Part shown: one piece after another, positions 6,783-38,461 of the stretch
Numbering within the stretch: the first letter of the stretch is position 1
Layout: every line of letters begins with the position of its first letter
Translations under genes and position numbers: made by a program
The notes under the pieces: model-generated
Told to the model about the DNA's origin: nothing
Database searches by the model: none
Seen by the model: only the letters and a program-made list of their open reading frames with translations
Source of the DNA: Spiroplasma cantharicola
GTDB lineage: Bacteria; Bacillota_I; Bacilli_A; Mycoplasmatales; Mycoplasmataceae
Assembly (NCBI RefSeq): GCF_001281045.1
Contig: NZ_CP012622.1
Coordinates: forward strand, 682,001 to 746,000
Length of the DNA: 64,000 bases
Direction of reading: 5' to 3'

Positions 6783-8681
6783 TTATCTACCTAATTTCTC
6801 TTTTACATTTAATGAAATATTTGAAACTTGAGGGCCATAAATTATTTGAATGTTTTCACCCTTTTTTATTATTCCCATATTTCCCGTTTGATTTAAAATA
6901 TCTTCATTTATTAATCGAGAGTCTTTGACTTTAATTCTTAATCTTGACGCACAATTATTAACTTCTAATATATTTTCTTGTCCACCAAGTCCATTAATTA
7001 TTTTATTTGTCTGTTCAATTGTATAAACTATATCTTTACTATTTTTAGTCTTATTTAAGGATTGCTCAGTTTTTTGAAGTGCTATATCTTCTTCTTGAGA
7101 ATTTCTTCCTGGAGTTTTAAGATCTTTAAATTTGATTAATGATCAAAATGAAAAGAAATACGCAGGAGCAATTATTAATAAACCATAAATCATTATTCAC
7201 AATGAGCCATTTCTTCCTGCAAACATTCCAAATATAGTTATTTCACTTTTTCCAATTATATCAACTCCACTTGAATACCCCGGAATTAAACCAAAGAAAA
7301 CATAATCAATCATTCCAGCTGTAAATCCATTACCTGCTTGAATATTTAATAAATAAGCAAATAAATAACTAAGTCCTCCTATTAAAGCATGAACACCAAA
7401 TAATAAAGGAGCTACAAAAATGAAAGAAAATATTAATGGTTCAATAATTCCTGTAGCCATAGATGTAACTATTGCTGATCCCAAAATACCTGTAACTTCT
7501 TTTTTATTTTCTGGTTTTGCTAAAAATATCATAGCCAATCCAGCTGCAGGAAGACCATAGTTATAAACTGCAAATCTTCCACTCATAAATCCAGTTCCTA
7601 CCTCTGTAGTAAAATGATTGAATGAAATATTTCAAACATCTCCACTTTTATAAATAATATCTAAATAACTTGTCATATTATTATCTAAAATACTTTGATA
7701 AGCTTCTTCTGATAATTCAAAACTTCGACCAATTCAATTCATTTGTTCAAAAAAAATTGTATATGCTCCTTGAGTTAAATTTCAACCTGTTATAACTCCA
7801 TCAGATATTTCAGGTGCATATCAAGTACCTCCAACTGAGGTAAACCAAAATGGTGTATAAAACACGTGATGTAATCCTGTAGGAATTAACAATTGTTCAA
7901 ATACTCCAAAAAAATATGCAGCAATTGAACCTGATGTTCTTGCATACTCTTCCTTACTTCCAACATTCATTCAAGTCCCTAAACCTGAACCAATTTGAAA
8001 TAAAGCTATCATCATAATTGGTCATACAAAGAAAATAACAACTCCTAAAGCTATTCCCATAAAAAAAGTAGCTATCGGAACAAATTTTTCTCCACCAAAA
8101 AATGATAACATTCTAGGAACTTTTATATTATAAGTTTTATTATGTACAATTGCTGTTAGTGAACCTACAATTATTCCTCCAAGAACAGAAAGATCCATTG
8201 TTGGATTAATACCCATAACACTTGATAACATACCTTTGTTTTTTCCTATCTCAACCAATTTAGAATCACCTGTTATTTTTCAAGGATCAAAACCAACAAT
8301 TAATTCTTTATTTTGATTCAGATGCGGTAAAAATAGAGCAGATACTGTAACTGTCATTGTCATAAATGCAATCATAGCTGATACAGCAGCAACACCTTTT
8401 GATTTTTTTGCAAAACCAAAAGCTATAGATGATGCAAATAAAATTCCCAAACAGGAAAATACAACATTTCCTATTGTCTTTATTACTTGAAAAAAGTTAA
8501 CTCAACCAATTCCTCATCCATGAGTTTGAGCTGCTGCTAAAAACCCACCACCAATTCCAAGCAATATACCTGCAATTGGCAATATTGCTATTGGAAAAAC
8601 AATTGCTCTTGATAAGTTTGAAATTTTGCTTGTTGTTTTTGTACCAAAAACTTTTCAAGTTTCTTTTTTAAATAATTTCAT
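6783..8681 (-). CDS. PTS EIICB permease, glucose/N-acetylglucosamine family
   Basis: A 632-aa sugar permease. The EIIC membrane domain (about residues 1-510, many glycine-rich membrane segments) is followed by a linker and a C-terminal EIIB domain whose phosphorylated cysteine is C577 in NNCASRLRI. It lacks a fused EIIA, so phosphate must come from a separate EIIA-Glc-type protein. It is longer than typical PtsG (about 480 aa), with extra sequence in the EIIC loops. An AAAGG site precedes the start. It heads the operon with the epimerase and RpiB. The sugar may be allose or allulose judging from the neighbours. Confidence 0.88.
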
Positions 8682-8826: not shown

Positions 8827-9657
8827 ATGGAACTAACAAGTACTGAAAAACTAATTCTATTGAAAATTGAAAATGATATTGAAACTTTTACAAATAAATC
8901 TATTTCAGAATTAAGTAAATTGTATTATGCATCTGACGCCTCAATTCTAAGATTGGTAAAAAAACTTGATTATAAATCACTAAAAGAAATGCAAATTGAG
9001 TTTGGAAGTAAATTAAAAATTAGCAATATGATAAACAATTTTAAGGAGGACTCATTATTTGAAACAAATACTAATATCGACGAAACTATCTCTAGCATAA
9101 CAGCCTTAAGTCTTTATTCAATATTTAGAACTGAAGAAAATTTAGATAAAAAAGCTGTTGAAAAATTTGTAAATATAATTTTAGAAAGTTCAAGTATTTC
9201 AATTTTTGGAATTGGAAATTCAAAAAACTCAGCATCATTTTTAAATAATCAGTTACAAAGAATAGGAATTTTATCAAGTTTACAAGATTCTGTTCATGGG
9301 TTTTTAATGCAAACTGGGTTTTTGAAAAATAAAAATATATCTATAATAATTTCAAATACATTAAAAACAAAGGAAATTAAATTTATATTAAACTTCTTAA
9401 AAAATAATAATATTCCTTACCTATTAATAACCTCAAATAAAAATAACAGTGAAAATGAATTTATAAAATTTGCAAGGTGCACTATTGAATATTCTATTAA
9501 CTCAAAGGAGAAATATTCGTTTCCAATGATAAGTTCTTTTTATTCGCAAATATTTATAATAAATATAATTTTTAATAGATTAATTCAAAAGACAAAGGAC
9601 TTTAAAAGTAAGATTGAGATGGGTAACGAAATGACTCTTAAGTGAAATAAATCTTAA
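8827..9657 (+). CDS. RpiR/MurR-family transcriptional regulator
   Basis: A 276-aa regulator. An N-terminal helix-turn-helix domain (about 1-77, with DASILRLVKKLDY typical of the recognition helix region) is followed by a SIS sugar-phosphate-binding domain (about 115-255, with GIGNSKNSA). It ends through a TGA tryptophan, adding four residues past that codon. An AAAGGAA site precedes the ATG. It is divergent from the EIICB-epimerase-RpiB operon and very likely controls it, as the founding member RpiR/AlsR does for rpiB and the allose genes in E. coli. Confidence 0.9.
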
Positions 9658-9664: not shown

Positions 9665-9687
9665 AAAAATTGCCTAAGGCAATTTTT
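9665..9687. terminator. Bidirectional stem-loop terminator
   Basis: A 10-bp perfect stem AAAAATTGCC/GGCAATTTTT with a 3-base loop between convergent genes, with A and T tracts on either side. It touches the stop codon of the minus-strand EIIA gene. Confidence 0.75.
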
Positions 9688-9992
9688 TAATTGGTATATA
9701 AATTAATCAAGTGTTCGGCCAAATCGATAATAATAATAGCACTTGTTAAATGATCTTGTGAATGGACAAAAAGTAAAGATATATCCAGTTTTTCACCACC
9801 AGCTTCCTGTGCAATTAAGTCACCATGAATATTATGTACTTTATTTAATTCTAATTTTGCTTCTGAAAGCATTTCCAAAGCTTTCTTTTTATTTTTCTTT
9901 TGAGCAATTGTTATTGCAGATAAAGCCATTGATTTTGCAGTTCCAGCTGTTGCTATTAACTCCATACTAACATTTATAATTTTTTCATTCAT
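9687..9992 (-). CDS. PTS EIIA component, lactose/cellobiose family
   Basis: A 101-aa all-helical EIIA of the Lac family. The phosphorylated histidine is H77 in LFVHSQDH, and the helix-rich layout and length match LacF/CelC. It accepts phosphate from HPr and passes it to the EIIB encoded at the head of the same operon (19.2-19.5 kb). Its ATG overlaps the stop of the preceding membrane-protein gene by one base (TAATG), so it is translationally coupled. It is the last gene of a thirteen-gene operon. Confidence 0.92.
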   Translation of the reverse strand: MNEKIINVSMELIATAGTAKSMALSAITIAQKKNKKKALEMLSEAKLELNKVHNIHGDLIAQEAGGEKLDISLLFVHSQDHLTSAIIIIDLAEHLINLYTN

Positions 9993-10546
9993 TATTTATA
10001 ATCTCCTAATTTTTCTATATCTTTAAATTGAAATAATAAGTCCTCAAGATATCAATTTTTACTATCTTTTCTGTAAATAAAGAAAATAGAACTCATTAAT
10101 GAATCATCTTGATTATCTCCATCTTTATATCTAATATCTTCAAAATAATTATTTGTAACTGAGAAAATAATAAAACTTTTAGAAGATAAAGATTCTATTT
10201 CATATATATTTATATATTTAATTATAACTTTGTTGTCCTTTTGATAATCATAATAGGAATTTCTTTGTTTAACAAATTCATTACATCTATTAACAAATTT
10301 TTCTGAAGTATAATCCAACTCTTTACAGACCTTATCATTTTCCTCTTGTAATACTATCTGATTATAGTATTTTATTGTTTTATTTTTATATTCAACATAT
10401 AAGAATCCCTTAAAAGCAAAACCTCATATTAAAATTATAAAGAGTATTATAGATAAAAGAATTAAAACTATTCTAGCTCATCAATACCAAGGTTTTCCAT
10501 TTAAAAAAGTTTTTTGACTAACCTCTTTTTCACTAATTTTTTCCAT
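9992..10546 (-). CDS. Small single-pass membrane protein in PTS operon
   Basis: A 184-aa protein of unknown function. Residues 1-20 are charged and probably cytoplasmic, one membrane helix lies at about 25-50, and a hydrophilic, Asp/Lys/Tyr-rich domain follows that would be exported or anchored outside. It contains four TGA tryptophans. It sits between an RpiR regulator and the EIIA of the same operon and overlaps EIIA by one base. No family was recognised. Confidence 0.7.
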
Positions 10547-10559
10547 AAACCTTCCTTAT

Positions 10560-11387
10560 CTATTTTGTAGTAATTAAAACTGATTTGTAATTTTTTTCGC
10601 TATTTAAATTTATAAGTAATTGAATTAAAATATCAATAAGAAAAATAAAAGATATTCTATTTCCTTTTATAAGTGACTTAAAATGATTATCATTGTTAAA
10701 TATAGATAGATTTAGGTTTGATAGTTTTTTAATCTTATTTTCTTCAAGACCTGTGAAAGATATTAAAAACATTTTTTTCTCATTTATTTTTTCTGCAACA
10801 TAAACTAATTGTTTTGTTTCACCTGATAGTGAGAAAATAATAAATAAGCAATCTTTTTTTGTGGAATTTGCACTTAAAAGAGTTTCTTGTATTACAGAAT
10901 CATTTGAAACATTAACATTAAAACCTAATCTTTGTAATTTTAAACAAAAATCATAGGCCACAGAATATGTTCCACCCATTGCAAAAATAAATATTTGCTT
11001 AGATAAATTTATTTTTTCAATTACTTGATCAATTTTTTTATCTTTAGTTCAAATTATATTATTTTTTTCTAAGATTTCATTTATATATGAAATCTCACTT
11101 TTTATTATTAAGCTTAATTCTTTATTTTCATTATTTTGATATTTTGAATCAACTAAGACACTATTTATATAATTTTTGACCTCATATTTAAATTCATTGA
11201 ATGAACTATAACCTAATCTTTTAATAAATCTAGTAACACTACTGGTAGAATGATTTATTTTTTTTGCCAAATCTCTAATATCAATATTATCCATAATTTT
11301 AATATTATCAATAACAAAATTTGCAATATTTGCATCAGATTCATTATTAATTCTTATTTTCTTTAATTTTGTTATTACATTTGACAT
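10560..11387 (-). CDS. RpiR/MurR-family transcriptional regulator
   Basis: A 275-aa regulator with an N-terminal helix-turn-helix (about 1-80; STSSVTRFIKRLGY marks the recognition helix) and a C-terminal SIS sugar-phosphate sensor (about 120-260; FAMGGTYSVAYDF and SLSGETKQ are the binding loops). The ATG is chosen for its AAGGGG site; in-frame codons upstream lack one. It lies inside the GH170/DgaE/DgaF operon and probably controls it, sensing a sugar phosphate of the pathway. Confidence 0.9.
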
Positions 11388-11401
11388 AATTTTACCCCTT
11401 A

Positions 11402-12607
11402 TCAACTGTGGGAAATTTTTTTTAATCCGGTTATTGATAAATTTTTAACTGTTGAGATTATTATATCACTATTAAATTCCTTTTCAAAAAGTTCAATTAT
11501 TTGTCTATTTTTAAATAAGCCACCTGTTGCAATAATTTTAGAGTTGCTCTTTTTTTTGGAATCAATTATTTTTTTATATTCTTTAATTCTATTAATCATT
11601 TGAATGATATAGGTATATAACAAATCAATATTAAATTCTACTTCTTCAATATTTAAAATATTTTGATCAAATCTTTCTTTATAGAAAAAAATTTGTTTAT
11701 CAATTAATTTTGCTCTTGAAAAGTCAACTTCATTTAAATCATCTAATGTCAACCTCATTTTTTTTGCAATTAATTCAATATTATTTGCACCATTTGACGA
11801 TGAAATTCCATATATTCACTTATTATTGTATATTGGAAAACAATAATCAAAATCATGAGATATTTCAACGTATTTCTGTGAAACATATCTTATACCAAGA
11901 GTTGTTCCTAGAGATAAAGAAATATTATTTTCTTCAGAAACTGAACCAATAGCAGCAGATGCTCCATCAGAAATACCTAAATCTATTTGTAATTCAAAAT
12001 TGTTTAGACTGCAGTTAAATACTTTTCTTTCTAAGAGTAACTTTGGAAAAATACTTTCACTTACATTTATATTTTTTAAAATTGTTTTACTATAATTCTT
12101 ACTTCTAGAATTAATTACCCCTAAGCCCACTGCATCTGATATTTCAATTACATTCTCATCAGTAAATTTATATAGAATAAAACTTTTTAAAGTTGTTATA
12201 GAATCATAATTAATTCCTTTATAGTTTTTAATTTTATAGACAGGTAAAAATTCAGAGTTAACTAATTTGTTAATTTTTCTAAAGTAATTTTTTTCTTCAT
12301 TTTTTAAAGTAAAATCTATTTTTTCTAAAAGTGAATGCCCTTTTCCAATTTGATTGTAATTCTCATCCAAAAAAATTAATGTATGCATTGCTGATGAAAA
12401 AATGACAAATAAATTTTTATTAAATTTAATATTTAAATTAATAAGATATTCTTTTAAAAAGTTAAATAATTTTTCTGCAGAAAAATTATTTTCTTCATCA
12501 AAATATATTTTTTTATTAAGAACTGAAATTTTATCAACTATTTTTTTATTATCATAAGCTTCAATTTTAATATTTGTGGTTCCTAGATCAATAAAAATTT
12601 TTATCAT
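11402..12607 (-). CDS. FGGY-family carbohydrate kinase
   Basis: A 401-aa sugar kinase of the FGGY group (gluconate, xylulose and glycerol kinases). The N-terminal phosphate loop reads DLGTTNIK, the second-domain loop LSLGTTLG, and the adenosine motif ATGGLFKN. It is about 80-100 residues shorter than usual family members but keeps all three motifs in one frame. It overlaps the upstream GH170 gene by one base (TAATG). In this operon it could phosphorylate the unphosphorylated sugar or aldonate released by GH170. The substrate is inferred only. Confidence 0.82.
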
Positions 12608-13719
12608 TAAAAAATCAACTTAAAATAACTTCAAGGTTGTATTTCTTCAAGAAGAAATAAATATTCATTTTCTAAGTAACCAACTACATTTCTTAAGCCA
12701 TCGTTCTTAATTTCCTTTTTTACAATTTGTAATTCACCTTTATATCTATTGTATAAATTATTTGGAATAACTATTGAACCAATTGGTATAATATCTCCAT
12801 TAAATTTTCTTGGCTTTATACTTAACTCTTTAAATTCAACTCTTGTGATAGTACTTCTTAAAATATTTTGAGAAAGATCCCCTCTTATGAAATGATTTTC
12901 AAAAGACATTATTTCTTTCTCCTCACTTGTAACATTTTCATTTAGATTAATTTTTAGATGTTTTTTAAAATCAAAATGTTTTAATATTGATTCAAAATCA
13001 TTTTTATTTGCACATTGTGTTGAAATATAAATATAACTTGCATAATCATTTGAAAGTAAATGATTTACTTGCATTCCAATTTCCAAAAATCTATGAATTT
13101 CAAGAGTTGGTAAATTTTCACTAACATCTCAAGGGCCTACACTTTCGTGTTCTGTTATTGTAACAAAAGCACCTACTTTAATACCCTTTACTTTTATTTT
13201 GGAATTAAATTTCTTAAATAGTTCATAGTCTAAACCTGAATATTTTTGTGGATAAAAATTATGAAGAGCTTGTAAATTTTGTTTATTTGCACCATAACTT
13301 AATATATTATCAATGTGGTCATTAAATGTGGAAGGATTTAATTCAATTTTTATATTGTAAGAATTGAATGTTAAATTAGCTTCAAAAAAACCATTAAACT
13401 GGTCATCTAACCTTAGACAATCAACACCTAAATCAAAAAAATATTTTAAATCTGGATTTTTATAATTTATTTTAACAGAATCAAATGTTGACTTATTGAC
13501 ATCTATTGTTACAAAATAATTTCTTTTTTTTGCTTCTGTGATTGTTTTTTTATATTTTTCAAAAAGTTTTTTATCTTTTTTTTCAATTACTCCAATAAAA
13601 TTTATAAATAATAAATCAAAAGAATATTTATTTGCAAGATCCAAATAAGCAATTATTTCATTCTCTTCGAGTGTCTCTGGATAAATTGAAATTCCCAATT
13701 TATTTTTTAAATTATTCAT
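12607..13719 (-). CDS. GH170 6-phosphoglycosidase family protein (MupG/DUF871)
   Basis: A 370-aa protein of the DUF871 family: a TIM barrel (opening LGISIYPETLEENE) followed by a small beta domain (about 250-370). MupG of Staphylococcus aureus, founder of GH170, cleaves the phosphorylated disaccharide MurNAc-6P-GlcNAc. Here it is co-encoded with a lactose-family PTS, so it probably splits the disaccharide phosphate that the PTS delivers. It overlaps the DgaF-like gene upstream by 8 bases and the kinase downstream by one. A paralogue lies at 38.5-39.6 kb. Confidence 0.85.
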
Positions 13720-14464
13720 AAAACATACCTCTAATTATTTTATATAGTTGCTTTACTTTTTCTATACTTGTTTCTCCACTTTGCTTATCTATAATTGAAT
13801 TGTAAACATGTGGAATAATTAACGGTACTTTTTCATCAAGAGCAACTTTAATTATTTCTTCAAAGTTTTCTAAATCAATTCCACCAGTTGGTTCTAATGA
13901 GAAATTATTCCTTGCACAAGCTCTTGCCACTATTTTATATTCTTCCAGAGTAGACATGCCATTCATTGGAAAAAACTTTATTGAATCTCCTCCCATATCT
14001 TTTATAATTTGTATTGCAGTATTCACCTCCACAATTGCATCTTCATTTTTTATTGATGAACTTAAAGGACCAGTATTTATTTTTACATATCCAGGCTTTC
14101 CAGTTGGTGAAACTAAGCAATTTATGAAAGTGTCATTTTTTTCAAAATCATTAACTGTTAATCCCACACCGGTAAATACTTGATTTGCATGAGCAGGCTT
14201 TACTTTTTTTGATAGTCTAGCTACCATGTAAGATTGGTTTGGATCACCTGCTCCTAAGCCAATACTAATTTTATTATTCGTTTCTTTTTTTCATTTAGTC
14301 ATTTCATCATATGCGGTCTTATCATTTGGAAAGTTTTTTGATAAAATTCCAACCACAACATTTCCCTCAGTAGCTTCAATAATTTCCTTTGCATTTTTTA
14401 AATCTTTTGCTAATACATTTAAACAAACTCTATTTTTATAAAAACTAATTTTTTTCTTATTCAT
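13712..14464 (-). CDS. dgaF: KDGP aldolase, DgaF family
   Basis: A 250-aa aldolase resembling DgaF/DagF, which splits 2-keto-3-deoxy-6-phosphogluconate into pyruvate and glyceraldehyde-3-phosphate. Recognisable stretches are KPGYVKINTGP, FFPMNGMSTLEEY and EPTGGIDLENF, and the length matches the family. An AGGGAG site inside the end of the DgaE-like gene drives translation. It is directly downstream of the DgaE-like ammonia lyase, as in the Salmonella glucosaminate (dga) operon, so the two act in sequence. Confidence 0.85.
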
Positions 14465-14466
14465 AT

Positions 14467-15522
14467 TTATCTCCCTTCGAAAAATAATGTTATATATTTA
14501 TTTATTATTTTTGCCTCTTCAATATTTATATTTCTAATGTCAATATCCAAATAACCTTGAAATGCAAAATAATCTCTAAGATAAATTGCAATATCACATT
14601 CTTTTAAATAGTTTGCTAATTCTTTTGCACTATTTTTTTTATTTACTATTTCAAAACGTATTCTTTCAATACCTCTTGTATCAATATCTTTTTTACATAA
14701 TATATTTTTATTTAGACTAAATATTTTTAAATATTCGTCAAAATTATTATTTTTATTAATTTTATAATTTTCTAAAGCGCTCAACAAACCAAAAATATTT
14801 TCTTTTCCAATTTTCATTGTTCTTCCAATAATGTCTTGATGTTTTTTTATATTTTCAATTATTATTTTGTTTTTACCAAAGACAAAACCTGATGTTGGAC
14901 CTTCAATTGCTTTTGATCCTGAAAAAATAACAACATCAATATCCTTATTTGAATACTTTCAAATATCTTCTTCAGCAGCACAATCAACTATTAGAACAAT
15001 ATTATTTTCTTTACACAATTTTATAACTTCATCAAGTGAAGCCATATTCTTTTGAACACAATGATGAGAAACTACATAGAGTAGTGCTGCAGTATTTTTA
15101 TTGAAATAATACTTATAGTCTTCAATAGAGCATTTATTTGAATATCCTGCTTCCATAATTTTAGCATTTACTAAATTTAAAAGTGATTCAATTGGTGCTC
15201 CGAAATCAATATTATGTCCTTTTGCTAAAATTATTTCCTTTTTATCAGGAATAATTTTATTAACATCATAGATCTTATCTTTATAAATTGATGCACAAGC
15301 AGATAGAGTTATACCTGCAGATGCCGAATTAACAACACAAACATTTTCGCTTTTAATTATTTTTTTTATTTTATCATATACAATTTCTTTGAATTCCGAC
15401 ATAATAAAAAAATTATTGCCAGCATATTCCATAGCTTGAGCCACATTTGAATTAAATTTAGATACTCCCAAAATAGTCATTCTTCCATCTGCATTTATTA
15501 CTTTTTTAAATTTTTTCGTCAT
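14467..15522 (-). CDS. dgaE: DgaE-like PLP-dependent ammonia lyase (SelA superfamily)
   Basis: A 351-aa pyridoxal-phosphate enzyme. The family opening VINADGRMTILGVS is at the N-terminus, the motif NSASAGITL binds cofactor, and the Schiff-base lysine is about K204 in SGSKAIEGPTSG. DgaE converts D-glucosaminate-6-phosphate to KDGP and ammonia. The start is the ATG with a GAGG site 8 bases upstream; two in-frame ATGs further upstream lie inside the preceding gene and have no site. It overlaps the amidohydrolase gene by 17 bases. Confidence 0.85.
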
Positions 15523-16618
15523 TATTTTGTACCTCATAAAACTTTCCATTTACAATAACTGCAAGAGGAACTATTTGTTCTTCTAATTCTAGAATGTTTT
15601 CTTTTGAATCAATTTCAATATTTTTATTTTTTTTAATTTTAAAAAAAGTTAAATTTGCAATATAACCATTTTTAATTTCTCCCATTTTCCTTAGATTAAA
15701 AAAATTATATGGATTTTTAATAACTCTATCTAAAATATCTTTTCATTCCATTCCAAGTTTTCTAAATTTATTCATTGTTACTGAAAGTGATTTTACTTTC
15801 TTATTTTTAATATTTGTTTCGTATATATCAGTACTAATAATATCTGGAATAAAATTATTTCTGTAAGATTCTTTAGCACATTCAAAAATGAAACTCTCAT
15901 TACCATGTCCCACATCAAATAATATTTTTTTATCTATTGCCTTTTCTAAGTCTTGGGTTTTTGTAAAATCCTTATTGAAAAGAGAATTGTTTTTGTAATT
16001 ATAAATATGTGTGATTATATCTCCCTTTTTTAATAATTTTATTATATCCAAAAACTTAGGTGGTTCATTTCCTATATGTACCATAATTGGTTTTCTTATT
16101 TTTTTTTCTTTTCTAGTATCAGCAAATATTTTTAAAGGTTCTAAACCAGTCTGAAGTGTAACAGAGTTACTCATTCTAGCTTTATAGCCTACAACAAAAT
16201 TATCAAACTTTTTATCATAATCAAATTGAATATCTTTTAAATTTGATAATTCCGATTGCTTATAGATTCCTTTTTTTGAGATATTTAAAAGTATTTTTAA
16301 ATTTGTAATATATTGTTTATTGATATTTCACATTCTCTCAATACTATTGATACCCACACTACCTGCATCTATTACAGTTGTTACACCATTTTTATATCCT
16401 ATCTCATCAAGAATAGATCCATATAATTTATTTTGATTATCACAATGAACATGACTATCTATTCAACCATAACTAACATAAATATCTTTTTCAAATTCTA
16501 TTTGCTTAAAATCATCTTCTTTAATATTTTTTGGTTTTTTTAAATAAATTAAACTCTTTCAAATATAAATATTTATTAAATTATTGTTGATATCTTTTAT
16601 ATTTAGAATTTTCAACAT
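15506..16618 (-). CDS. Amidohydrolase/deacetylase family metallohydrolase
   Basis: A 370-aa metal-dependent hydrolase of the amidohydrolase superfamily. The metal-binding HVHCD is near residue 55, the barrel strand MVHIGNEPP lies mid-protein, and HIYN and DVGHGN carry further likely ligands. It resembles the amidohydrolase that accompanies DgaE and DgaF in other Firmicutes and is annotated as a deacetylase. Here it probably removes an N-acetyl group before the ammonia lyase acts. It starts with a one-base TAATG overlap with the gene upstream. The substrate is inferred. Confidence 0.82.
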
Positions 16619-17124
16619 TATTTAATATCTCTTACTCTATTTAATAAATAATCCTTTAAAAGAAGAACTTTATTTACTACTTTTGCATTAAAAGCACTTT
16701 GCAATTTTTTATGTTCCTTTTTATTTATTTCTTTAATTGTTCTTTGAGATTCTAAATATCAAATACTTGTAGAGTAGTTTTCCTTTTTTTGTTTAGTTCT
16801 AATAAATATTTTTGTTAAAACAGTTTCATCTGAATTTAAATGAGCTAATTCAATTCTTTCATTTTCAATATATTCTGTTATTAAATAATTTTTTATATTA
16901 TTTTTTGTATCACTAATATTTAAATTAATTCCAATTTTAAGTTTTTCTATTTCAAAATTTTTTGTTCTCAAGTTTAAAAATAAATATTTTAAAAACTCTT
17001 CTCAAAATTCAAAGTTTGTCATATTAATTTTAAAAAAAATCTCAGATGAAAAAATTCTATTTATTTCAGATGCATGATTTTCAAAAATTGGTTCTTCAAA
17101 ATTATTGATCTTTTCTAATTTCAT
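16618..17124 (-). CDS. Conserved hypothetical protein in PTS/Dga operon
   Basis: A 168-aa soluble, charged protein without signal peptide or membrane segment, rich in Lys, Glu, Asn and Ile. No family was recognised. It lies between two small membrane proteins and the amidohydrolase, overlapping the former by 23 bases and the latter by one base. The tight coupling suggests a role in the same pathway, perhaps as an accessory subunit. Confidence 0.7.
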
Positions 17125-17533
17125 TTTTTTTACCCTTTTTTAATTCTTTAAATTTATCAACATTAAAAACAATTTCTAAACCAATAAAGATAAGTAATAG
17201 AGATCATAATATAAACCCTGGAATACTATTTAGTAAAATTCCAGCTATAAAAAATAATGTTGTATATATAATTCATTTTATAGCACTAAAATTTTTTCTA
17301 TTAGATCCATAAATAAATGAGCCTGTTATTAAAAAACTTAAACCAATTAATAACATTGTTGAATTATTATCTCCAAATAAATTTTTTGTGCCACCTCATT
17401 CTTCTCAAAGAATTGTAAAATATATTACATAAGAAATTATAGTAAGAATTCCTAAAACTATAACTCAGTTATGAAAATATTTTTTTAAATTTTTCTTTTC
17501 TTTAACTTTTATTTCATTATCTTCTTTTTTCAT
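17102..17533 (-). CDS. Small membrane protein in PTS operon
   Basis: A 143-aa protein with a charged N-terminus (about 20 residues), four hydrophobic segments (about 22-120) and a very basic tail. No family was recognised. It is read through several TGA tryptophans. It is encoded between the PTS EIIC-side genes and the catabolic enzymes, so it may assist transport; this is inference from position. Confidence 0.7.
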
Positions 17534-17536
17534 AAA

Positions 17537-17815
17537 TTAGAAAATCCTTTCTTTAATTTTATTTTGTTTTAATAAATAATACATATAATTTAGTCACCAT
17601 GCTAAATAAAAACTTATAAATATAATTAAAATAATTAAAGGAAGAAAAGTAGCTATAATTCAACTTACACCAATAAATAATATTAAACCAATAACTCCTA
17701 TAACTAAATTTTTACCTTTTAATTTTCCTTCATATTTTCTATAAGTAAAGATAGAAACTATTCAATTAATAGAAGATAATAAAGTAAAAATTATTATTAA
17801 TGTAAATGTACTCAT
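17537..17815 (-). CDS. Small membrane protein following PTS EIIC
   Basis: A 92-aa protein with three hydrophobic segments and a basic tail ending KIKERIF. Its ATG directly abuts the EIIC stop codon (TAGATG). No family was recognised. A similar-sized membrane protein stands beside the EIIB in the second GH170 operon (39.6-39.9 kb), suggesting a recurring accessory of these transporters, although I see no clear sequence similarity between the two. Confidence 0.7.
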
Positions 17816-19210
17816 CTATAAAACACCTGACTCACTATCTATTTTTTCCTTTTTCAATAAAAATCTATCATAAGCTAATGTAAATGGGAATCAAATTACA
17901 ATAGCTGAAGCTAAGACAATTAATGCAGCAATGGACGCTTGTCATTGATTACCACTTGCAAAGAATGCTCCAAAGGGACCTGGCATTGTTCAAGGTGCCA
18001 TTGTAACTCAATGAATACCAAATGTAATTTGCAATAGATATCCTATTGTTGCAGATACAACTGGACCCAATACAAATGGAATCCACATAAAAGGATTTAA
18101 TAATATTGGCAATCCAAATAATATTGGTTCGTTAATATTAAATATTCCTGGTACCAGACTTGTTCTAGACATAGATTTTAAAGTTGCTGATTTAGAAATT
18201 ATTGAACCTACTATCACAAGACCTAATGTATTTCCAGCTCCACCTACCTGAGCAAATCATTGAAAGAATGGTTCTATAAAATAGTTTGGAACCTTTTCAC
18301 CATTTTTGAAGGCCTCTTGATTTTCTTCAAGAGCAATAATTCAAAAAGGTCTTGTAATTGATTGAACTAATGAACCACCATGAATTCCAAATCATCATAG
18401 AAATACAATTAAAAATATAATAATTAAAGCTCCTAATAAATTACTTACTAAGAAATTCCCCATTGGTGCTAAAGCATCTTTTAAGAAATTTGCCAAATCA
18501 AATCCTACAATATATCTAATAAATCCTATAATTAGAGCACCAAAGAAAATTGGAACTAAGGCTGAAAAGGAATTACTTACAGCATCAGGAACTTGTTTTG
18601 GTAATCTAATAGTTATTCGATACTTAAGACAAACTCTATAAATTTCTACACAAATTGTAGAAGAAACAATAGCAACAAAAGCTGTTGAACCTCCTAAATC
18701 CTTTATATTAATTCACAATCCACCTTTTAAAATACTAAAAGATATTCCTGTTTTATCAAGTAATTCTGCTAATTGTGCAGATTCTTGTTCAGACAAAACA
18801 CTAACATTTAATGATAATGGCAGTATTCACATTATATACCCCATTGCACCAATAACAGCTCCTTGAGTTGAACTTAATCTACTTAGTCTGGCAAGTTCTG
18901 AACCAATTCCAATTGCCATATACAATGCCATAATACCAAATGTAAATCTATTAATAAGATCAAAAGCCACTTTTAACTCGGGTGGAAAAAGAGTTGATAA
19001 TAATTGTCCATCTCCAGTTCCTATTGGAATACTTGAGATAATTAAAAAAACACTTCCAACTAATATAAATGGTAATGCTGCCATTATCCCGTTTCTTATA
19101 CCTAATAAATGTCTTTGAGTACTAATCTTTCCAAAAAATGGTATTAATTTATTATTCATTCATATTTTGAATTTTGAATCTTCTTTTGAATCTTTACCTT
19201 TTGGACTCAT
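17816..19210 (-). CDS. PTS EIIC component, lactose/cellobiose family
   Basis: A 464-aa membrane channel of the CelB/LacE type. The N-terminal cytoplasmic helix RHLLGIRNG precedes about ten membrane segments, and the substrate-site region WWFGIHGGS and the motif NINEPILFG are both present. It imports a disaccharide or glucosamine-type sugar and works with the separate EIIB just upstream and the EIIA at the operon end. It overlaps the EIIB stop by one base (TAATG). Confidence 0.92.
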
Positions 19211-19509
19211 TATATACTCTCCTTATTTTTTTCTCAGAATTGAGCAATTGAATTAAGATTAAAATATTCTGCATCAATTTGAATCATCTTTATTTTTCCA
19301 TCAACATCTTCTTCAAGTTTTGAATACATATGCTTAATTTGTGGTGAGACGAGCAATATTGAATAGTCTTCTAAATAGTCTAATCAACTTGTATCAGTCA
19401 TTATACCTTTAGCTTCAAACTCAATATAACCATCAGCACATTCGTTTAATTTTTTAGCGATCATTGTAGTTGAAATACCACCGCTACATATTAATAAGCC
19501 TTTTTTCAT
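19210..19509 (-). CDS. PTS EIIB component, lactose/cellobiose family
   Basis: A 99-aa EIIB with the phosphorylated cysteine C8 in LLICSGGIST at the N-terminus, the typical position for the Lac/Cel family. It carries phosphate from EIIA to the sugar during import. The ATG has a GGAGGT site. It heads the thirteen-gene GH170/Dga operon. An imperfect dyad (TTATGAAA, ATA, TTTCC, AAATAA) at 19563-19584 in front of it could be the operator of the RpiR regulator in this operon. Confidence 0.9.
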
Positions 19510-19594
19510 ATAATACCTCCAATCATATTTTAAGGGAAAAAAATTTGATAATATTCTTATATTTATGAAAATATTTCCAAATAAATAAAACAAA

Positions 19595-19648: not shown

Positions 19649-21049
19649 TTAAAGCTCTTCCCCATTTGTTTTAATTAAATTTTGATATCAAAAGAAACTA
19701 TCTTTTCTATAACGCTTTAAATCCTTTAAATCAAACTCATCACGATTAACATAAACAAAACCATAGCGTTTTTTAACACCTTCATGTGTTGATGTTAGGT
19801 CAATTGCACTTCAAGGATTATATCCAAAAATATCTATTTTATCTTCAATAATGGCTGCTTTCAATTCTTTTAAATGAAATTTATAGTACTCAATTCGATA
19901 ATCATCGTGAACTTTACCATCACTTGTTAAAGTATCATAGCCACCAATTCCATTTTCAGTCACTATTAAAGGTAATTGATATCTATCTCAAAGCTCTCTA
20001 ATTGTATTTCTAAAACCTAATGGATCAATCTCTCATCCAAATTGAGTTTTTAATAAGTTGTCATTTTTAACTTGTTCATACATACCTTTTACACTTTTTA
20101 CTTTTTGCTGATCTGGTAACTCATCAAATAATTCATCACTTTCAGGCATTTTTGCAGTAGCAGATGCATAGTAGTTAAAAGCAATAAAGTCTGGCTTTCC
20201 TTTTTTTATTATTTTCATCTCTTCTTCAGTGTATTCAAACATTGAATTGTTTGCTTGTAAATAATTGATAACTAACTGATTATATCTTCCAAAAACACAA
20301 GTATCTAAATAAAATCAATTACGCATTACTCTCATATTGAAAGCTGCAAATTGGTCAATTGGTTTATTAGTATTACCATAAACACTTGTAATATTTGGTG
20401 CGGGACCAATTTTACCATTTTTAACAATTTCGTGACATAAATTAATAGCTTTTGCTTGAGCTAACATCATATGATGATTTACTTGATAGATATTTTTAAG
20501 TTTGTTTCCACCTTTTGGTAAATTAATACCTACAATTTCGCCAAATAAAATCATTACATTTTGTTCATTAATTGTTAATCAATGTTTTACACGATCACCA
20601 TAAGATTCAAATAAAACTTTTGCATACTGTTCAAAGGCATTAATTGTTCTTTTATTCAATCAACCTCCATCTAAATTCAAACTATGAGGTAAATCAAAAT
20701 GGAACATCGTTACTATTGGAGTTATTTTATATTTTAACAACTCATTAATTAAGTTATTATAAAATTCAATTCCTTCTTTATTTACTTCTCCATCACCTTC
20801 TGGCAAAATTCTTGTTCAAGCAATTGAAAATCTATAAGATTTAAATCCCATTTCAGCCATTAACGCCACATCTTCTTTTCAATGATTATAATGATCTGAA
20901 GCTACTTTAAAATCAGTTGTTCCTTGTGGAATGTTTGTTCTTGTATCTTGAATTGATTTACCTTTTCCACCTTGATCAAAACCTCCTTCAAATTGGTAGG
21001 CACTAGTTGACCCACCTCATAAAAAATTACTTGGTATTTTATTTGACAT
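19649..21049 (-). CDS. bglA: 6-phospho-beta-glucosidase (GH1)
   Basis: A 466-aa GH1 enzyme, the usual length. The N-terminal [15 protein letters not shown], the acid/base glutamate in TINEQN and the nucleophile glutamate in VTENGIG are all present; the NEQN form resembles the NEIN of phospho-glucosidases rather than the NEP of plain glucosidases. It hydrolyses 6-phospho-beta-glucosides such as cellobiose-6P or salicin-6P inside the cell. It overlaps the end of the beta-glucoside PTS gene by 11 bases and is its obvious partner. Confidence 0.92.
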
Positions 21050-23525
21050 GCTTCATTTCCTCTCTTGTTTTTAAGTTTAAAACTTCTTTTTTTGTTCAAT
21101 TTAAATTATTCATTTCAGTTAATTCATAGGCAATATCAATAGAATTAATTGCATTTAAATAAACTTTTTTATAATCTTCTAAAATTTGATTTTTATTAAC
21201 ATTTAAATTATCAATAATATCAGATACTTCTTTATATTTTTGTGTGTTAAAAGTTTTTACTTCTTTTTCACAATTACTTAATTTTAATTCAAGTTCTTTA
21301 ATTTCAATTACTAACTCATTAAAATTTTCAGGTAATTTTAAGTTATTATATTTATTTGCAAAATAATTATATTTATCTAAATCTTTATCTTCTAGTTTTA
21401 ATATTTTATTATAAAGTTTTTCTTTTTTCATTTCAAATCTATTTATTATATTTTGTTTTTTAATTTCTTTTTTTTGTAAAGAGATTAAAGTATTTTCATA
21501 ATTTTTATAATTTTTATTAAAATCTTTAATTGCTAAAGTTTCTTTTGCTAATTCTTCTTTTAAAGATTTTAATTTAGTATCATCAAAATCAAAATTTAAT
21601 TTAACTGTTTTTAATAATAATTTATTGTTTTCTCTAAAGGCAATATACTCTGATTTACGATCTTGATACAACATCAATGTTAAAACTAATGCTGTAATTA
21701 AAGAAATAAATCCAGCTAAAATACCAAATACTATTCCCCATCCAATATCTAATCCCATTCAAGACATAATACCAGTTCCAGTTCTTCTATATTGAGCAAC
21801 TCCTAATACTCCTGCAACAAATCCTCCAACCAGTCCACCAACACAACCAAAAATAAATGGTTTTATTTTCGGTAAATTAATTCCGTAAATAATTGGTTCA
21901 GTTACACCAAATATAGCTCCAGGCAATGAAGCAAAGATAGCTTGTTTTGTTTTTTGATTTTTGCTAATAAAACTTAAAGCTAATACAGCTCCAATTTGTC
22001 CCATAATTGCTATTTGTAAACAAGCATACATAGCTGATGGGTCTCCATCATTCATTGGTAATGCAATCACAGTCACAACAGCAACGTGAGTTCCTGTTAA
22101 AACTAAAGGTTGCCATATCATTGCAAATATTCCCATACCTATTCCAAATGGTATTTTTCCTAATAAGATTACGAATTTTGCAATAAATTGCTCAATAATT
22201 CTAAAAAATGGGCCTACTGTAAATAGCATTATTAGGAATGTTGATAAGAAAACTAATGCTGGTCTAAAGACAATATCAACTGATGTTGGCATTCATTTTT
22301 TAATTCAATTATTTAAAAATACTAATAGTAAACCAGCACATATCATTGGTAAAACTGTACCCTCATAAGTTTTAATAACAATGGGATTTCCAAATAATGT
22401 AAATAAAGTTCATCCACTTCCAAATAAATATCTACTAGTTAATGCAGCTCCTAATCATATGGCAAGCCAGGGATCTCCATTAAAATATTTTACAGTACTG
22501 CATAAAAATACAATTCCCACTAATTCAATTCCTACTTTTGACATAATATACATTAAAGAACTAAATAAATCCAATTCCATTACTGATTGACCTGGTGCAG
22601 GATTTGAAATTACACCAGAAATTGCAAGAATAGCTTGTAATCCACTAATTACTCCTGTTCCAATTAAAATTGGAATAGTTGGAAAAACAATGGCAGTAAT
22701 AGCTCCCATGATTTTTTGCTTTCTTGGAACTTTTGTAATTTTTTGTTTTTCATCACTTGTTGATTTATTGTCAATTATTTTTTGACATTCATCTTTAACT
22801 TTGTAAACTTCTCCTCCAATAATTATTTGAAGTTCTTCACCATTTCAATTAATTCCCTTAGTCAATTCAATTTCTTTTAAAGCTTTTTCATTAACAAGAT
22901 CTTTATTAATAATTTTAAAGCGCAATCTTGTCATGCAATTGTGTACAAGAGATTGATTGTTTTTTCCACCAATAGCTTCTAGATATTTTAGAGCCAAAGA
23001 TTTATATTTACCTTCTCTTTTTTCAATTTTAATTTTATTATCTTTAATTATTTTTACATCTTCAATTTCTATTTCATAAATTAACTCACCTTTTTTAACT
23101 TTTTTTCCTTCATTTTTAATTGTTAATTTATATTTTGAAACCGAATTCAAATCTACTAATACTGGTGTTACTTTTGGCAAATTTGCAGCTTCAATAATTT
23201 TCCAATCAACTTTAACAATTTCATCACCAAGAGAAACTTCTTGACCTTGTTTTCCTAACAATGAAAATGGTTTACCTGAAAGCGCAACTGTTTCTAAACC
23301 AATATGCATTAAAACATTGTAATTATTTGTTGAAAAATATATTGCATGTTTAGTATCTGTGATTAATTCTATTCTTCCATCTTTTACCGGTGAATAAAAA
23401 ATATCTGAACTTGGTTCAATATAAACTCCATCACCTAAAGATTTGCTTGCAAAAACAGGGTCTGAAATATTTTCAATTGCTTTAACAATTCCATCTACAG
23501 GAGCATAAATTTTTATCTTTTCCAT
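21039..23525 (-). CDS. Beta-glucoside-type PTS EIIABC with C-terminal coiled-coil extension
   Basis: An 828-aa fused permease in the order EIIA (about 1-150, histidine in VLMHIGLETV), EIIB (about 195-270, cysteine in VHNCMTRLRF) and EIIC (about 280-620, with GVTEPIIYGINLP). Standard BglF runs B-C-A, so A comes first here. After the last membrane segment a Lys/Glu-rich stretch of about 200 residues (about 625-815), predicted by eye as coiled coil, is added. An AAAGGA site precedes the start. It is followed by the matching 6-phospho-beta-glucosidase. Confidence 0.9.
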
Positions 23526-34277: not shown

Positions 34278-34544
34278 ACTTTCTTTTAAACATATTATTT
34301 TAACAACTAAAATGATGGTTGAAAAAATAGCTTGAAATATATTTGTTATATAAACTTGTGGCTGAGGTATTGGAGTTAATAAACCATAAATAATTCAAAT
34401 TAATGAAGCAATAATTAAAATAATAATACTATAATAGGAAATATCCTTTGTATTTTTTGTTTTAATAACTTTAATTACTTGTGGAATTAAATAGACTGCT
34501 GTTAAAATCGTTCCAATTCAACCCATTATTTCATATATTTGCAT
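34266..34544 (-). CDS. SemiSWEET sugar transporter
   Basis: A 92-aa three-helix membrane protein with the SemiSWEET/MtN3 features: the PQ motif in YLIPQVIKVIKTKNTKDIS in helix 1, then IIYGLL and a third helix. SemiSWEETs dimerise and pass sugars down their gradient in either direction. The ATG overlaps the kinase stop by one base (TAATG), tying it to the fucosidase/GH170 operon. Since the operon already has a PTS for uptake, export of a released sugar such as fucose is a reasonable guess, though uptake is equally possible. Confidence 0.82.
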
Positions 34545-35371
34545 TACTTAATAATTACCTCATAATTTCTTTTGTTAAAACCGCTTATAAGTAAAGACTT
34601 ATAATATTTATTTTTTACCATTCCTCCAAAAATATACACTATATTTATTTTTTTATTTATTTTTGTTAAATCAATATATTCAAAGAAGTTTCTAGCTAAA
34701 ATGTCTAAAATACAATTAATTTCATTAATTAAAGCATTATAATTTTTAATTAAAATATAAACACTAAATTTTAGAAATTTGGACTTTACAGCATTTCAAT
34801 TTTTATAAAGTGTTTTAAGTTCTTCTATATCTTTAAAATTAAAATATTCCAAAGTATATTTTATAAAATTACTACTACTTTTTTCTCTTTCCTTATCTAT
34901 TATTGCGTATTTTATAAATTCCTTTGCAAATGTATATGCAGATCCCTCATCTGCAATTAAGGGTCCAAAACTAGACATAATTCGTTTCTTGCCTTTAACA
35001 TTTTCAATCATGACACTACCACTTCCTAGTGATATTGCTAAATAGCTTTCCTTTTCACAAAATAATAACTCTTGAATTTCAATATCAGTTAATATGTAAA
35101 TATTTTTTTTAATAATTTTATTATTAAAAATATTATATATTAGTTTATATTGTTTAAATTCCAAAATTCCTGGTGCTCCTAGATACAATTTTTCTAAACA
35201 GTATTCTTTATATTTTTGATAAATTTTGAAAAGTTCTGCTAAGGATTGATTAGTTTTTGTATATAAATTTACTCCATCAAAAATATCCTTCTTAATTATT
35301 TGCTTGTTAGCATCTAGTAAGTAGACTTTAGTAGAAGTAGCTCCACCATCAATTAATAGATTATATTTCAT
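34544..35371 (-). CDS. BadF/BcrA-type ATPase, N-acetylglucosamine kinase-like
   Basis: A 275-aa member of the ASKHA fold. The N-terminal phosphate loop DGGATSTKVYL is at residues 8-18, the second is SLGSGSVMI, and ADEGSAY matches N-acetylglucosamine kinases; a late FGGMVKN closes the fold. Members phosphorylate GlcNAc or other aminosugars. It follows the PTS EIIC gene by 7 bases, with an AAAAGG site. In the operon it could phosphorylate a sugar freed by GH170 or the fucosidase. Confidence 0.8.
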
Positions 35372-35378
35372 TTTTGAT

Positions 35379-37247
35379 TTAACCTTTTTTTTCGAATTTT
35401 CTATCTTTATTTTGCTTTTTATTAATTTCTTCTAAAGCAATCATTTTCATATATTCATGTACGGTTTTTCCTATTTTCTCAGCTTCTTTTTGAATATAAG
35501 CCTGCTCTTCTTTTAAGATTTGTTTATCTCAAGCTTTATAAAATGGAAATCATACTAATGTAGCAACTCCAGTACATATCAATGAAGTGGCAACTGCAAA
35601 TATACTATTACCACTTGAAAGAAATGCTCCAATTGGACCAGGTAAGGACCATGGTGCAACAGCAACTCAATGGATGCTAAATAAATTGACTAAAATTAAA
35701 GAAACAATTGCACAAATCATTGGAGCTATCATAAATGGAATAAATAAATAAATATTTAATACCACTGGAAAACCAAACATCATTGGTTCGGAAATATTAA
35801 AAACAGCTGGCACAAAACAAGCTTTTCCCATTGCTTTATTTTGCTTTGATTTAGAAAAAAACATACCACAAATTGCCAAGCCAATTGTAGACCCTGATCC
35901 TCCAATTCAAATAGTTCATTGATAATATTGTTCTACAAATTTATTTGGTACATCTCCAATCATTCCATTATTTCATCATTCAGAATTCTGAGCAATTGCA
36001 GGATATCATATCGGATAAGTTATAATTCCTGTTATTGCGCTTCCATGAATTCCAAATCATCAAAATAAGGAATTAAAGAAGATAATCATTATTACAGCTC
36101 CAAAATTATCATTTACTAATGAAGCTAAGGGTTTTAAAATATTATTTATTCCTGTAATTAAATCCACATTTGCGATATAGCCAATTAATATTACAAAAGT
36201 TGCGTAAATAATTGCTGGAATAATTGCAATGAATGAATTACTTACAGCTGGTGGAACACTTTTTGGTAATCTAATAGTAATTCGATATTTTTTAAATATT
36301 CGATATAACTCAACCATAATCATTGAAGTTATCATTGATACAAATAAACCCTGACTTCCTAAATCTGCTAAAGGTAGTGCAGTTCCACCCCCTTCCGCCA
36401 GTACTTCTGGTTTCACTCAGAGAATAAATCCAAGCATACCCATAATTCCAGACATTAATGAAGCCTCACCATAACTTTTACCTAAGTTTACTCCAATGGC
36501 AACTGATAGTGCAAGAGCCATAATCCCCATTGTTAATCCAGAGATTACAACCAATGCATGATCTAATACTTTTGGAAAATATGTATATAAATATGCATGA
36601 TCTGAATTTGGATCAAAATCTGTGGGAATACTTCTAATAACAGTAATAAAAGAAGCAATCATAATAAATGGAATTAGAGAACTAAAAGCATTTCTAATTG
36701 CCATTAAATGTTTTTGACTAGCAACTTTACCCAAAAATGGCATTACTTTACCATGAATATTTTTTGCACTTGTTGTAGTAGTATTTTTAAAATACCTCAT
36801 TGAGTTAATTTTACAACTATTTTTTAGTTGCTCAACTTCTTCTCTAAGTTGCTCTTTTCTTTTAGCATTAAATTTCTTTAATTCAATCAATTCTAATTTT
36901 TTTTCATCTTTTGTTAAGTTTTTAATTGTCTTTTTATATTTTCTTTTTTGCTTATTTATATCTTGAAAATAATTATTTTGTACTTCAATAATTTTTAGTT
37001 CAACAGCTTTTTGTTCTTGAACTTTTTTATATTTTTCAGGATTTTTTAAAGCTTTTAATTCTAAATTATGAGTAGCTTTAATAATTGAATATTGAGACTT
37101 GTATTGTTCAATTACTAATTCTTTTTCAAATTTTAATAATTGCTTATCTTTTAATTTATCTTTTTTTTCAATTTTTAAATCCACTAATTCTTTTTTTTGT
37201 AAGTCTTTAAACTTTTTAATTTCTAAATTCTTTTCTTCTTTTTTCAT
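35379..37247 (-). CDS. Lactose-family PTS EIIC with N-terminal coiled-coil extension
   Basis: A 622-aa permease. Residues 1-155 are an extremely Lys/Glu-rich helix without prolines until near the end, predicted by eye as coiled coil. A normal CelB-type EIIC of about 440 residues follows (RHLLGIRNG-like KHLMAIRNA, WWFGIHGSA, FNISEPMMFG). A strong AAGGAG site precedes the start, so the extension is really translated. EIIB and EIIA are separate genes in the same operon. A 27-bp perfect palindrome lies 45 bases upstream. Confidence 0.9.
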
Positions 37248-37291
37248 TAATACACTCCTTCCAATTTAAATTTTAGATGGAGTATCTATGC

Positions 37292-37318
37292 AAATTATTT
37301 CATAATATGAAATAATTT
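37292..37318. promoter_or_regulatory. Perfect 27-bp palindrome, candidate RpiR operator
   Basis: Arms AAATTATTTCATA and TATGAAATAATTT around a central A, between the RpiR gene and the EIIC gene. A near-identical palindrome stands before the first gene of the same operon (41478-41502). The shared core is TTATTTCAWANTWTGAAATAA. Two matched sites flanking one regulon strongly suggest the operator of the RpiR encoded between them. Confidence 0.65.
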
Positions 37319-38143
37319 CTAAATAAGATTATCAGACTTTATTAACTTACTAATTCTTTCTTTATTTAATAAAGCGTGAAAAATTGACTTGAGTATAAAT
37401 AAAACTGTCAATTCACTTGATTGTCTATTTTCAATAATGCTTTCATTTTCACCAATTCTAATTACAATATCATCTTTTGAAATTAAATTTGAAACATCAT
37501 TTCTTGTTATTATTATTTTTCGAATATTTTTCTGATTAAGTTTTGTAATAATTTTTTCAAAAAAACTACTCGATAATGAATAACTGATAATTAAAACACA
37601 GTCTGATTCATTAATTATATTAGAGTAAGCAAGTTGTTGATCAGTGTCTTGAGAAAAAAATGTTCTAAGATTAACTCTTAAAAGTCAATCTATAAATAAA
37701 TGAACCAAAAATATATTGCCTCCCTTGGCAAACATAAATATATTTTTAGAATTTTCAATAACTTCCTTTGCTTTCATTATAGCAACTCTATTTATTTTTG
37801 CTGTCTTTTCTAAACTCAATTTAGTTATATCTGCTAGTTTATCTATAGAATTTGCTTCACTTGAAAAATTAAACTCTTGATTTTTCAAATTAATTGTTTG
37901 CAAATATTGATTTTCTAGCTTTAATGATATATTTAGACTTTTAAAACCATTTAAGCCTAACCGCTTACAAAATCTTGTCACTGTTGAAGGGCTGGTAGAA
38001 GTATTTTTTGAAATATCAAAAATGGTATACTTTTCCAATACCATATATTTTTCTAACAAAAAATTAGCAATTACTTGAAAACTTATATTCTCAGAATATT
38101 TTGATATGTCTTTAATTTGTTCTAATGTATTTTTCTTATTCAT
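37319..38143 (-). CDS. RpiR/MurR-family transcriptional regulator
   Basis: A 274-aa regulator: helix-turn-helix at about 1-80 (TSPSTVTRFCKRLGLNGF) and SIS domain at about 110-260 (FAKGGNIFLVH, IISYSLSSSFF). It lies inside the fucosidase/GH170 operon after EIIA, and its stop codon adjoins the 27-bp palindrome that precedes EIIC. It most likely binds that palindrome and its twin in front of the fucosidase, sensing a sugar phosphate. Confidence 0.9.
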
Positions 38144-38149
38144 ATTTAA

Positions 38150-38461
38150 TTACTTTTTGCCTTTATATAAATCAATTATATAGTCTAAAAGTTCTAAAAT
38201 AACAAGAGCATTAGAAAAATGGTCTTGTGAATGAATAAAAAGAGTTTTTATATCTCAGCTTTCTCCTTGAGCTTCTCTTGAGATTATTTGAGCATGTAAT
38301 CTATGAGCTTCATTTAATTTTGATTTTGCCTTAATAGCCAATTCCTCAGCTTTAACTATGCAACCACTCTTTGCATTTTTAAGAGCTAGAAATGCTATTC
38401 CTTTTGCCTCACCAGAAATACCAATTAATTCCATACTTATTTCTATTGTTTTTTCTTCCAT
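38150..38461 (-). CDS. PTS EIIA component, lactose/cellobiose family
   Basis: A 103-aa helical EIIA with the active histidine in LFIHSQDHF (about H78). It is paralogous to the EIIA at 9.7 kb: both open EISMELIG or VSMELIA and share the SQDH motif. A GGGGAG site inside the end of the GH170 gene drives it, one base after that stop. It serves the EIIB and EIIC of the same operon. Confidence 0.92.

Follow-up and report, generated by a model that had tools for sequence, protein, structure and literature searches.

Lytic polysaccharide monooxygenases (LPMOs) release pieces of chitin that are oxidised at C1. The published route that was found for their catabolism is known only from marine gammaproteobacteria. 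In this route, the Ong pathway of Pseudoalteromonas (PMC9537276), a GH20 enzyme cuts in the periplasm, chitobionate-derived N-acetylglucosaminate (GlcNAc1A) enters by a symporter, and a deacetylase, a pyridoxal phosphate (PLP)-dependent lyase and a kinase yield 2-keto-3-deoxygluconate 6-phosphate (KDG-6P), acetate and ammonia. Here we consider a thirteen-gene operon of Spiroplasma cantharicola, a probably arthropod-associated bacterium. The operon lies in a stretch of 64,000 nucleotides (the window), which covers positions 682001-746000 of a single-contig genome of 1.18 Mb. It encodes a lactose (lac)/cellobiose-type phosphotransferase system (PTS), a GH170 phosphoglycosidase, an FGGY-family kinase, an amidohydrolase, homologues of DgaE and DgaF, and a regulator. 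Judging from sequence, it probably serves the catabolism of a beta-linked disaccharide with N-acetylglucosaminate at its reducing end, most likely chitobionate (GlcNAc-GlcNAc1A, with N-acetylglucosamine, GlcNAc, as the other unit).

The Ong pathway and the route proposed for Spiroplasma both combine deacetylation, a PLP-dependent lyase step and phosphorylation. However, the dimer is proposed here to enter through the PTS and to be split inside the cell by GH170. The Ong deacetylase is of the D-aminoacylase type and the Ong lyase has fold type III, whereas the deacetylase and lyase of the operon fall in families other than those of OngB and OngC. Furthermore, phosphorylation comes last in the marine bacteria, whereas the kinase is placed before DgaE in the pathway favoured here. 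By these family assignments, the two routes are analogous and not homologous.

The transporter of the Salmonella dga operon (DgaABCD-DgaE-DgaF) is a mannose (Man)-type PTS. Salmonella DgaE acts on glucosaminate-6P; docking places the phosphate at Arg301, Arg332 and Arg346, and His163 donates the proton (PMC9529869). The Spiroplasma operon resembles this system in its predicted DgaE/DgaF chemistry and in its conserved active-site residues. By contrast, the Salmonella PTS takes a monosaccharide and its operon has no glycosidase, deacetylase or kinase (PMC9529869); the lac-type PTS, amidohydrolase and kinase are all present in Spiroplasma, which places it outside the Salmonella type.

In Lacticaseibacillus paracasei, genetic evidence shows that the use of N,N'-diacetylchitobiose depends on the GH170 enzyme ChbE and on a cellobiose-type PTS (PMC12791066). 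The same pairing for a GlcNAc dimer is proposed here, but ordinary GlcNAc is released in L. paracasei and the chb system has no DgaE, DgaF or amidohydrolase. In addition, ChbD (DUF3284) is not recognisable in the Spiroplasma operon, and a profile search for it gave no match to the 168-aa operon protein. A Borrelia GH170 (L148:4770-5867), annotated as an alpha3-beta1 integrin-binding protein, directly follows the genes for EIIA and EIIB (EII, enzyme II) of the chitobiose PTS and may be an intracellular phospho-chitobiase; the function of Borrelia chbC in this PTS has been described (PMC2845121). The mupG-murQPR operon of Staphylococcus aureus (PMC6262408) also combines a PTS, GH170 and a MurR/RpiR-type regulator, but it serves an N-acetylmuramic acid (MurNAc)-6P route with MurQ, uses another EII type, and its GH170 belongs to a separate branch.

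The proposed pathway and its recurrence

In the proposed pathway, the lac-type PTS would bring in the disaccharide and phosphorylate its non-reducing GlcNAc at O6. GH170 would then split the phosphorylated dimer, releasing N-acetylglucosaminate and GlcNAc-6P; the latter would be handled by NagA, whose gene lies outside the operon. The FGGY kinase would phosphorylate this aldonate at O6 and the amidohydrolase would take off acetate, in either order. Finally, the DgaE homologue would convert glucosaminate-6P to KDG-6P and ammonia, and DgaF would cleave KDG-6P to pyruvate and glyceraldehyde-3P. An aldonate reducing end is expected because DgaE and DgaF require it, and an N-acyl group because an amidohydrolase is present. 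The class of pathway is well supported by the comparisons below. From these we infer which reactions take place in Spiroplasma cantharicola, whether kinase or deacetylase acts first, and what the substrate is. The open-access literature (subscription papers and preprints were outside the search) yielded no account of such a route and no reported function for the Enterococcus faecalis EF_0830-EF_0839 locus.

Is this combination of genes peculiar to one species? An earlier note on this DNA had joined the steps into one path and suggested a search for the gene set elsewhere, which recovered it both within the genus and in distant Firmicutes. The full thirteen-gene order is found in two further Spiroplasma genomes (G043 and G033), with proteins 53-97% identical; memC alone is frameshifted in G043 (L009:13175-13721). 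Thus, the order is not due to chance. In Clostridioides difficile, genes for lac-type EIIB, EIIA and EIIC occur with those for GH170, amidohydrolase, DgaE, DgaF and a sugar kinase. The E. faecalis locus has the same set in one run, lac-type EIIC included, plus an extra SFCGS/DUF4310-4312 transporter, and comparable sets are present in other Enterococcus and in Clostridium, Priestia, Lactococcus and Thermoflavimicrobium. These Firmicutes sets differ in having a PfkB kinase in place of the FGGY kinase and other regulators (an antiterminator or GntR protein in E. faecalis and its relatives).

When species genomes were scanned, 80 named loci were recovered and classed by gene content. The most common class (52 loci) has amidohydrolase, DgaE and DgaF, usually with a PfkB kinase and GntR and often with a gluconate symporter. 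GH170 is carried by 18 loci, ten of which also have the SFCGS set; the remainder comprise two loci with kinase and SFCGS, six with SFCGS only and two with a Man-type PTS. The amidohydrolase is absent solely from these two Man-PTS dga operons.

The presence of a kinase follows the type of transporter. Of the 72 loci that have GH170/lac-PTS or have no transporter recognised as phosphorylating, 68 encode a kinase, whereas the eight with Man-PTS or SFCGS/DUF4310-4312 alone all lack one (Fisher 2e-8, a value that overstates the evidence since the loci are related). Four loci depart from this rule, and two of them (L123 and L135) are short or truncated. This pattern fits the chemistry: a kinase would be needed for an aldonate that becomes available without a phosphate, as when freed by GH170, and dispensable where the transporter would phosphorylate it. 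It also suggests that the SFCGS/DUF4310-4312 transporter phosphorylates its substrate in a PTS-like manner. Among the loci found, those with this transporter (EF_0830-0833 in E. faecalis) and without GH170, such as L047, L075, L140 and similar ones, have no kinase unless a kinase-type operon adjoins.

Has the operon been inherited together with the Firmicutes sets? In a DgaE tree, the operon protein groups with DgaE of G056 (100/100), apart from all GH170-type operons of Firmicutes, and the DgaEs of the latter are themselves spread over several branches. The DgaF family (PF07071) is present in six of 60 genomes of the family to which Spiroplasma cantharicola belongs. In G056, G024 and G016, a trio of amidohydrolase, DgaE and DgaF lies downstream of a DUF4311-type transporter, in a run that lacks GH170, a lac-type PTS and an FGGY kinase. 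With its own kinase and regulator, the Spiroplasma operon seems to have been put together independently for the same pathway, and such an assembly would strengthen the functional link between its modules. The alternative is that one transcript carries two unrelated functions, one served by a chitobiose-type PTS and GH170, the other by a glucosaminate module. The two modules are indeed found apart, as DgaE-DgaF without GH170 and GH170 without DgaE. However, they have come together with different kinases and regulators and with DgaEs from several branches. Such a recurrence is difficult to account for unless the two are functionally linked, and we regard this alternative as very unlikely.

Enzyme families and the likely substrate

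Which features of the enzymes identify them? In the GH170 protein, MupG_N and MupG_C domains span the full length, and the residues conserved across a 59-row family alignment (R103, D105, N128, N154, Y156, P157, E207, R210, R279, D281, R288, R293, N320, Y326, E329) are present. The DgaE homologue conserves H162, H163 and K213, the PLP lysine, as well as R296, R325 and R339, which correspond to Arg301, Arg332 and Arg346 of the Salmonella enzyme; this arginine cluster is invariant in all 62 rows of the alignment. DgaF exceeds the cut-off of its equivalog model NF047796 (364 bits against 300). The amidohydrolase matches EF0837 (PDB 2ics) over its full length (1e-70), with HVH, KARMS, VHIG, TH and STDIY motifs in common. 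The structure nearest to the FGGY kinase is a gluconate kinase (PDB 3gbt, 9e-10); only FGGY_N is recognised by Pfam, and an SDGA-AAIG motif is kept in the three orthologues. Together with the recurring gene set and the kinase pattern, the phosphate-site residues of DgaE support the single path proposed in the earlier note.

The same note had named a muropeptide-derived sugar as the main alternative, and this is now disfavoured. In such peptidoglycan scavenging, the PTS would take MurNAc-GlcNAc or a related sugar and the GH170 would be MupG, which is the founding member of the family; the regulator is also of the MurR/RpiR type. However, MurQ-linked enzymes form a branch of their own in the GH170 tree (support 100/96), although an approximately unbiased (AU) test did not reject joining the operon enzymes to it (p 0.255). 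The operon enzyme is probably not a MupG proper, which would be expected in or next to this branch in a genome with MurQ. Statements on the whole Spiroplasma genome rest on family-by-family queries and a few stretches; these gave no MurQ, whereas NagA is present and GH18 matches were found on five predicted lipoproteins (G000:C1:459754-475604; L166, L167), four of which have a DGxxIDWE motif. A MurNAc disaccharide is therefore unlikely. Moreover, a muropeptide yields no aldonate for DgaE and DgaF, and scavenging is very improbable as the function of the operon.

It is harder to choose between chitobionate and other substrates of the same pathway class. A different phosphodisaccharide ending in N-acyl-glucosaminate or glucosaminate could be used; its non-reducing unit might be glucosyl or deacetylated glucosaminyl, for instance, or its N-acyl group something other than acetyl. 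The sequence tells neither the glycosidic bond nor the acyl group. The Firmicutes operon GH170s form a second branch in the tree and those of Spiroplasma a third, long one, whose placement is not fixed; the two are not grouped in the best tree, and the AU test does not reject such a grouping (p 0.224). On the other hand, the nearest non-orthologues of the operon EIIC (42% and 39%) are EIICs of family members' operons that combine GH170 with a BadF kinase, a GlcNAc-kinase-like gene, and the known GH170s that have been characterised genetically or biochemically act on disaccharides of GlcNAc or MurNAc (PMC6262408, PMC12791066). We consider another substrate of this class unlikely. Chitobionate, favoured in the earlier note for its fit to an arthropod-associated mollicute, keeps its place as the best single candidate, with a moderately good chance of being correct; its role as the actual substrate is a proposal.

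A residue signature for an oxidised aglycone was sought at GH170 position 343, where every operon enzyme has R/K and most of the others do not. It was not accepted as decisive, as R/K is also found in three enzymes linked to GlcNAc-kinase-like genes.

The wider genomic context touches chitin in several ways. Two further GH170 operons of the source genome have kinases that are ROK-like or BadF-like by eye, as expected if GlcNAc is released there. In the window, an operon at 34544-41466 (-) encodes GH170, a BadF-like kinase, PTS EIIA/B/C, RpiR and a protein that, by eye, looks like a GH29 fucosidase; it is a candidate route for plain or fucosylated chitobiose. Among the named genomes searched, LPMOs of family AA10 (PF03067) are encoded by 14 of 15 that carry the GH170 version, compared with eight of 24 of the kinase-only type and one of six of the SFCGS-only type. 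In a sample of the class in which small genomes abound, they are encoded by one of 395. Within Enterococcus, AA10 is present in all 12 GH170-version genomes and in one of seven others; outside it, Thermoflavimicrobium and Priestia taiwanensis have an LPMO, and no AA10 LPMO was found in Clostridium simiarum with the GH170 version. Chitobiase digestion of LPMO products is known to leave GlcNAc-GlcNAc1A (PMC13325158).

Contrary evidence and the order of steps

Several results weigh against a chitobionate pathway with an early kinase. The DgaE homologue scores below the cut-offs of equivalog NF047797 (263.7 bits, cut-off 600) and TIGR01437 (342.6 bits, cut-off 385.3), as does the amidohydrolase for TIGR03583, the EF_0837 model (361.1 bits, cut-off 432.15), and the FGGY kinase is divergent (44.4 bits for gntK_FGGY, cut-off 648). 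The residues common to operon GH170s give no clear split from chitobiose-type enzymes. The association with LPMOs is weak outside Enterococcus, which accounts for 12 of the 14 LPMO-positive GH170-version genomes; in the class sample, no AA10 LPMO was found in three genomes with GH170-type loci (G113, G086, G356) or in Spiroplasma, source genome included. Chitobionate would therefore come from the host or from other microbes. AA15 LPMOs are known to act in insect moulting and cuticle turnover (PMC9156745). Finally, the best-scoring models for the PfkB proteins of the Firmicutes operons are those of 2-keto-3-deoxygluconate (KDG) kinases, a result that allows an unphosphorylated, Ong-like order.

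Does the kinase act before or after DgaE? With a late kinase, the amidohydrolase and DgaE would act on unphosphorylated N-acetylglucosaminate and glucosaminate to give KDG, which is then phosphorylated to KDG-6P; the substrate would be the same and only the order of steps would change. Besides the PfkB scores, this has a precedent in marine bacteria, where OngB, OngC and KdgK run in that order (PMC9537276). However, Enterococcus caccae (L104, L124) has one operon with a Man-PTS, which is expected to deliver its substrate already phosphorylated, and one with GH170. Their DgaEs are 98.3% identical and their DgaFs 100% identical, which argues for glucosaminate-6P as a common intermediate. Together with the conserved phosphate-site arginines, invariant in every DgaE row, these near-identical copies favour a kinase acting before DgaE, and the kinase of the Spiroplasma operon is a gluconokinase-like FGGY protein. 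A late kinase is thus doubtful. Two E. faecalis genes, ef_0839 and ef_2975, have likewise been stated to be strictly identical (PMC2912369).

Operon layout and wider meaning

The earlier description of thirteen co-directional, mostly overlapping genes is confirmed. With genetic code 4, all thirteen genes on the minus strand are intact, from the start of EIIB at 19509 to the end of EIIA at 9687, whereas most are broken when read with table 11. Intergenic distances range from -44 to +13 bases, the majority being overlaps. The gene list given earlier (PTS, GH170, FGGY, amidohydrolase, DgaE, DgaF, RpiR) also stands, but it left four small open reading frames without a recognised family unnamed (Table 1). 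AlphaFold models of the 168-aa protein and the FGGY kinase (mean pLDDT, predicted local distance difference test, 44.5 and 38.5) were set aside.

Table 1. Features of the operon in window coordinates, in order of transcription after the upstream block
Feature	Position	Strand	Matches and remarks
Conserved non-coding block, candidate promoter/operator	19544..19580	-	Three-species alignment, 5' of EIIB
PTS EIIB, lactose/cellobiose type	19210..19509	-	PF02302 4e-7; TIGR00853 5e-12; first gene of the unit
PTS EIIC, lactose/cellobiose family	17816..19210	-	TIGR00410 305 bits, above cut-off of 236
memA, small predicted membrane protein	17537..17815	-	No Pfam match; kept in G043 and G033
memB, predicted membrane protein	17102..17533	-	No Pfam match; kept in G043 and G033
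168-aa protein	16618..17124	-	No credible family; operon orthologues 63-72% identical (G043, G033)
Amidohydrolase/deacetylase, EF_0837/COG3964 type; proposed N-acetylglucosaminate(-6P) deacetylase	15506..16618	-	TIGR03583; Amidohydro_1 2e-10; PDB 2ics
DgaE-family PLP ammonia lyase	14467..15549	-	PDB 7lc0 (Salmonella D-glucosaminate-6P ammonia lyase) 4e-57
DgaF-type 2-dehydro-3-deoxy-6-phosphogluconate aldolase	13712..14464	-	NF047796; PF07071 1e-96
GH170 (MupG/ChbE/DUF871) phosphoglycosidase	12607..13719	-	PF19200 1e-73; PF05913 3e-33; PDB 1x7f 3e-71
FGGY-family kinase, gluconokinase-like; proposed aldonate 6-kinase	11399..12607	-	PF00370 6e-12; PDB 3gbt 9e-10
RpiR/MurR-family transcriptional regulator	10560..11405	-	HTH_6 4e-10; SIS 5e-14
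memC, predicted membrane protein	9992..10546	-	No family matched; G043 copy frameshifted
PTS EIIA, lactose/cellobiose type	9687..9992	-	PF02255 5e-28

Where does the unit begin? The upstream GH1 and EII-Glc genes (19649-23525) were considered as members and rejected, as they are missing from the G033 locus. Moreover, the three Spiroplasma genomes share a conserved 37-bp block that lies 35-71 bases ahead of the start of EIIB. Therefore, the unit begins at EIIB. Just past its other end are divergent genes for an RpiR regulator (8827-9657, +) and a glucose (Glc)-type EIICB (6783-8681, -). In another genome, G015, an FGGY kinase gene lies beside a weak match to the 168-aa protein and memB-like and EIIA-like genes (L164:8948-11761), with no DgaF; this stretch is possibly a relic of the operon.

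What would such a pathway mean more widely? There is a slightly better than even chance that it represents a widespread Gram-positive route for LPMO-made chitobionate, with deacetylase and lyase steps non-homologous to those of Ong, assembled repeatedly by swaps of transporter and kinase and re-assembled with an FGGY kinase in a wall-less bacterium. Many enterococci carry AA10 LPMOs and insects carry AA15 LPMOs, which are possible sources of oxidised chitin products. If the reading is correct, a PTS-based route would explain the fate of these products in Firmicutes and mollicutes, and a function would be assigned to the E. faecalis EF_0830-0839-type locus and its C. difficile counterpart. The role of GH170 would then widen past peptidoglycan and plain chitobiose.

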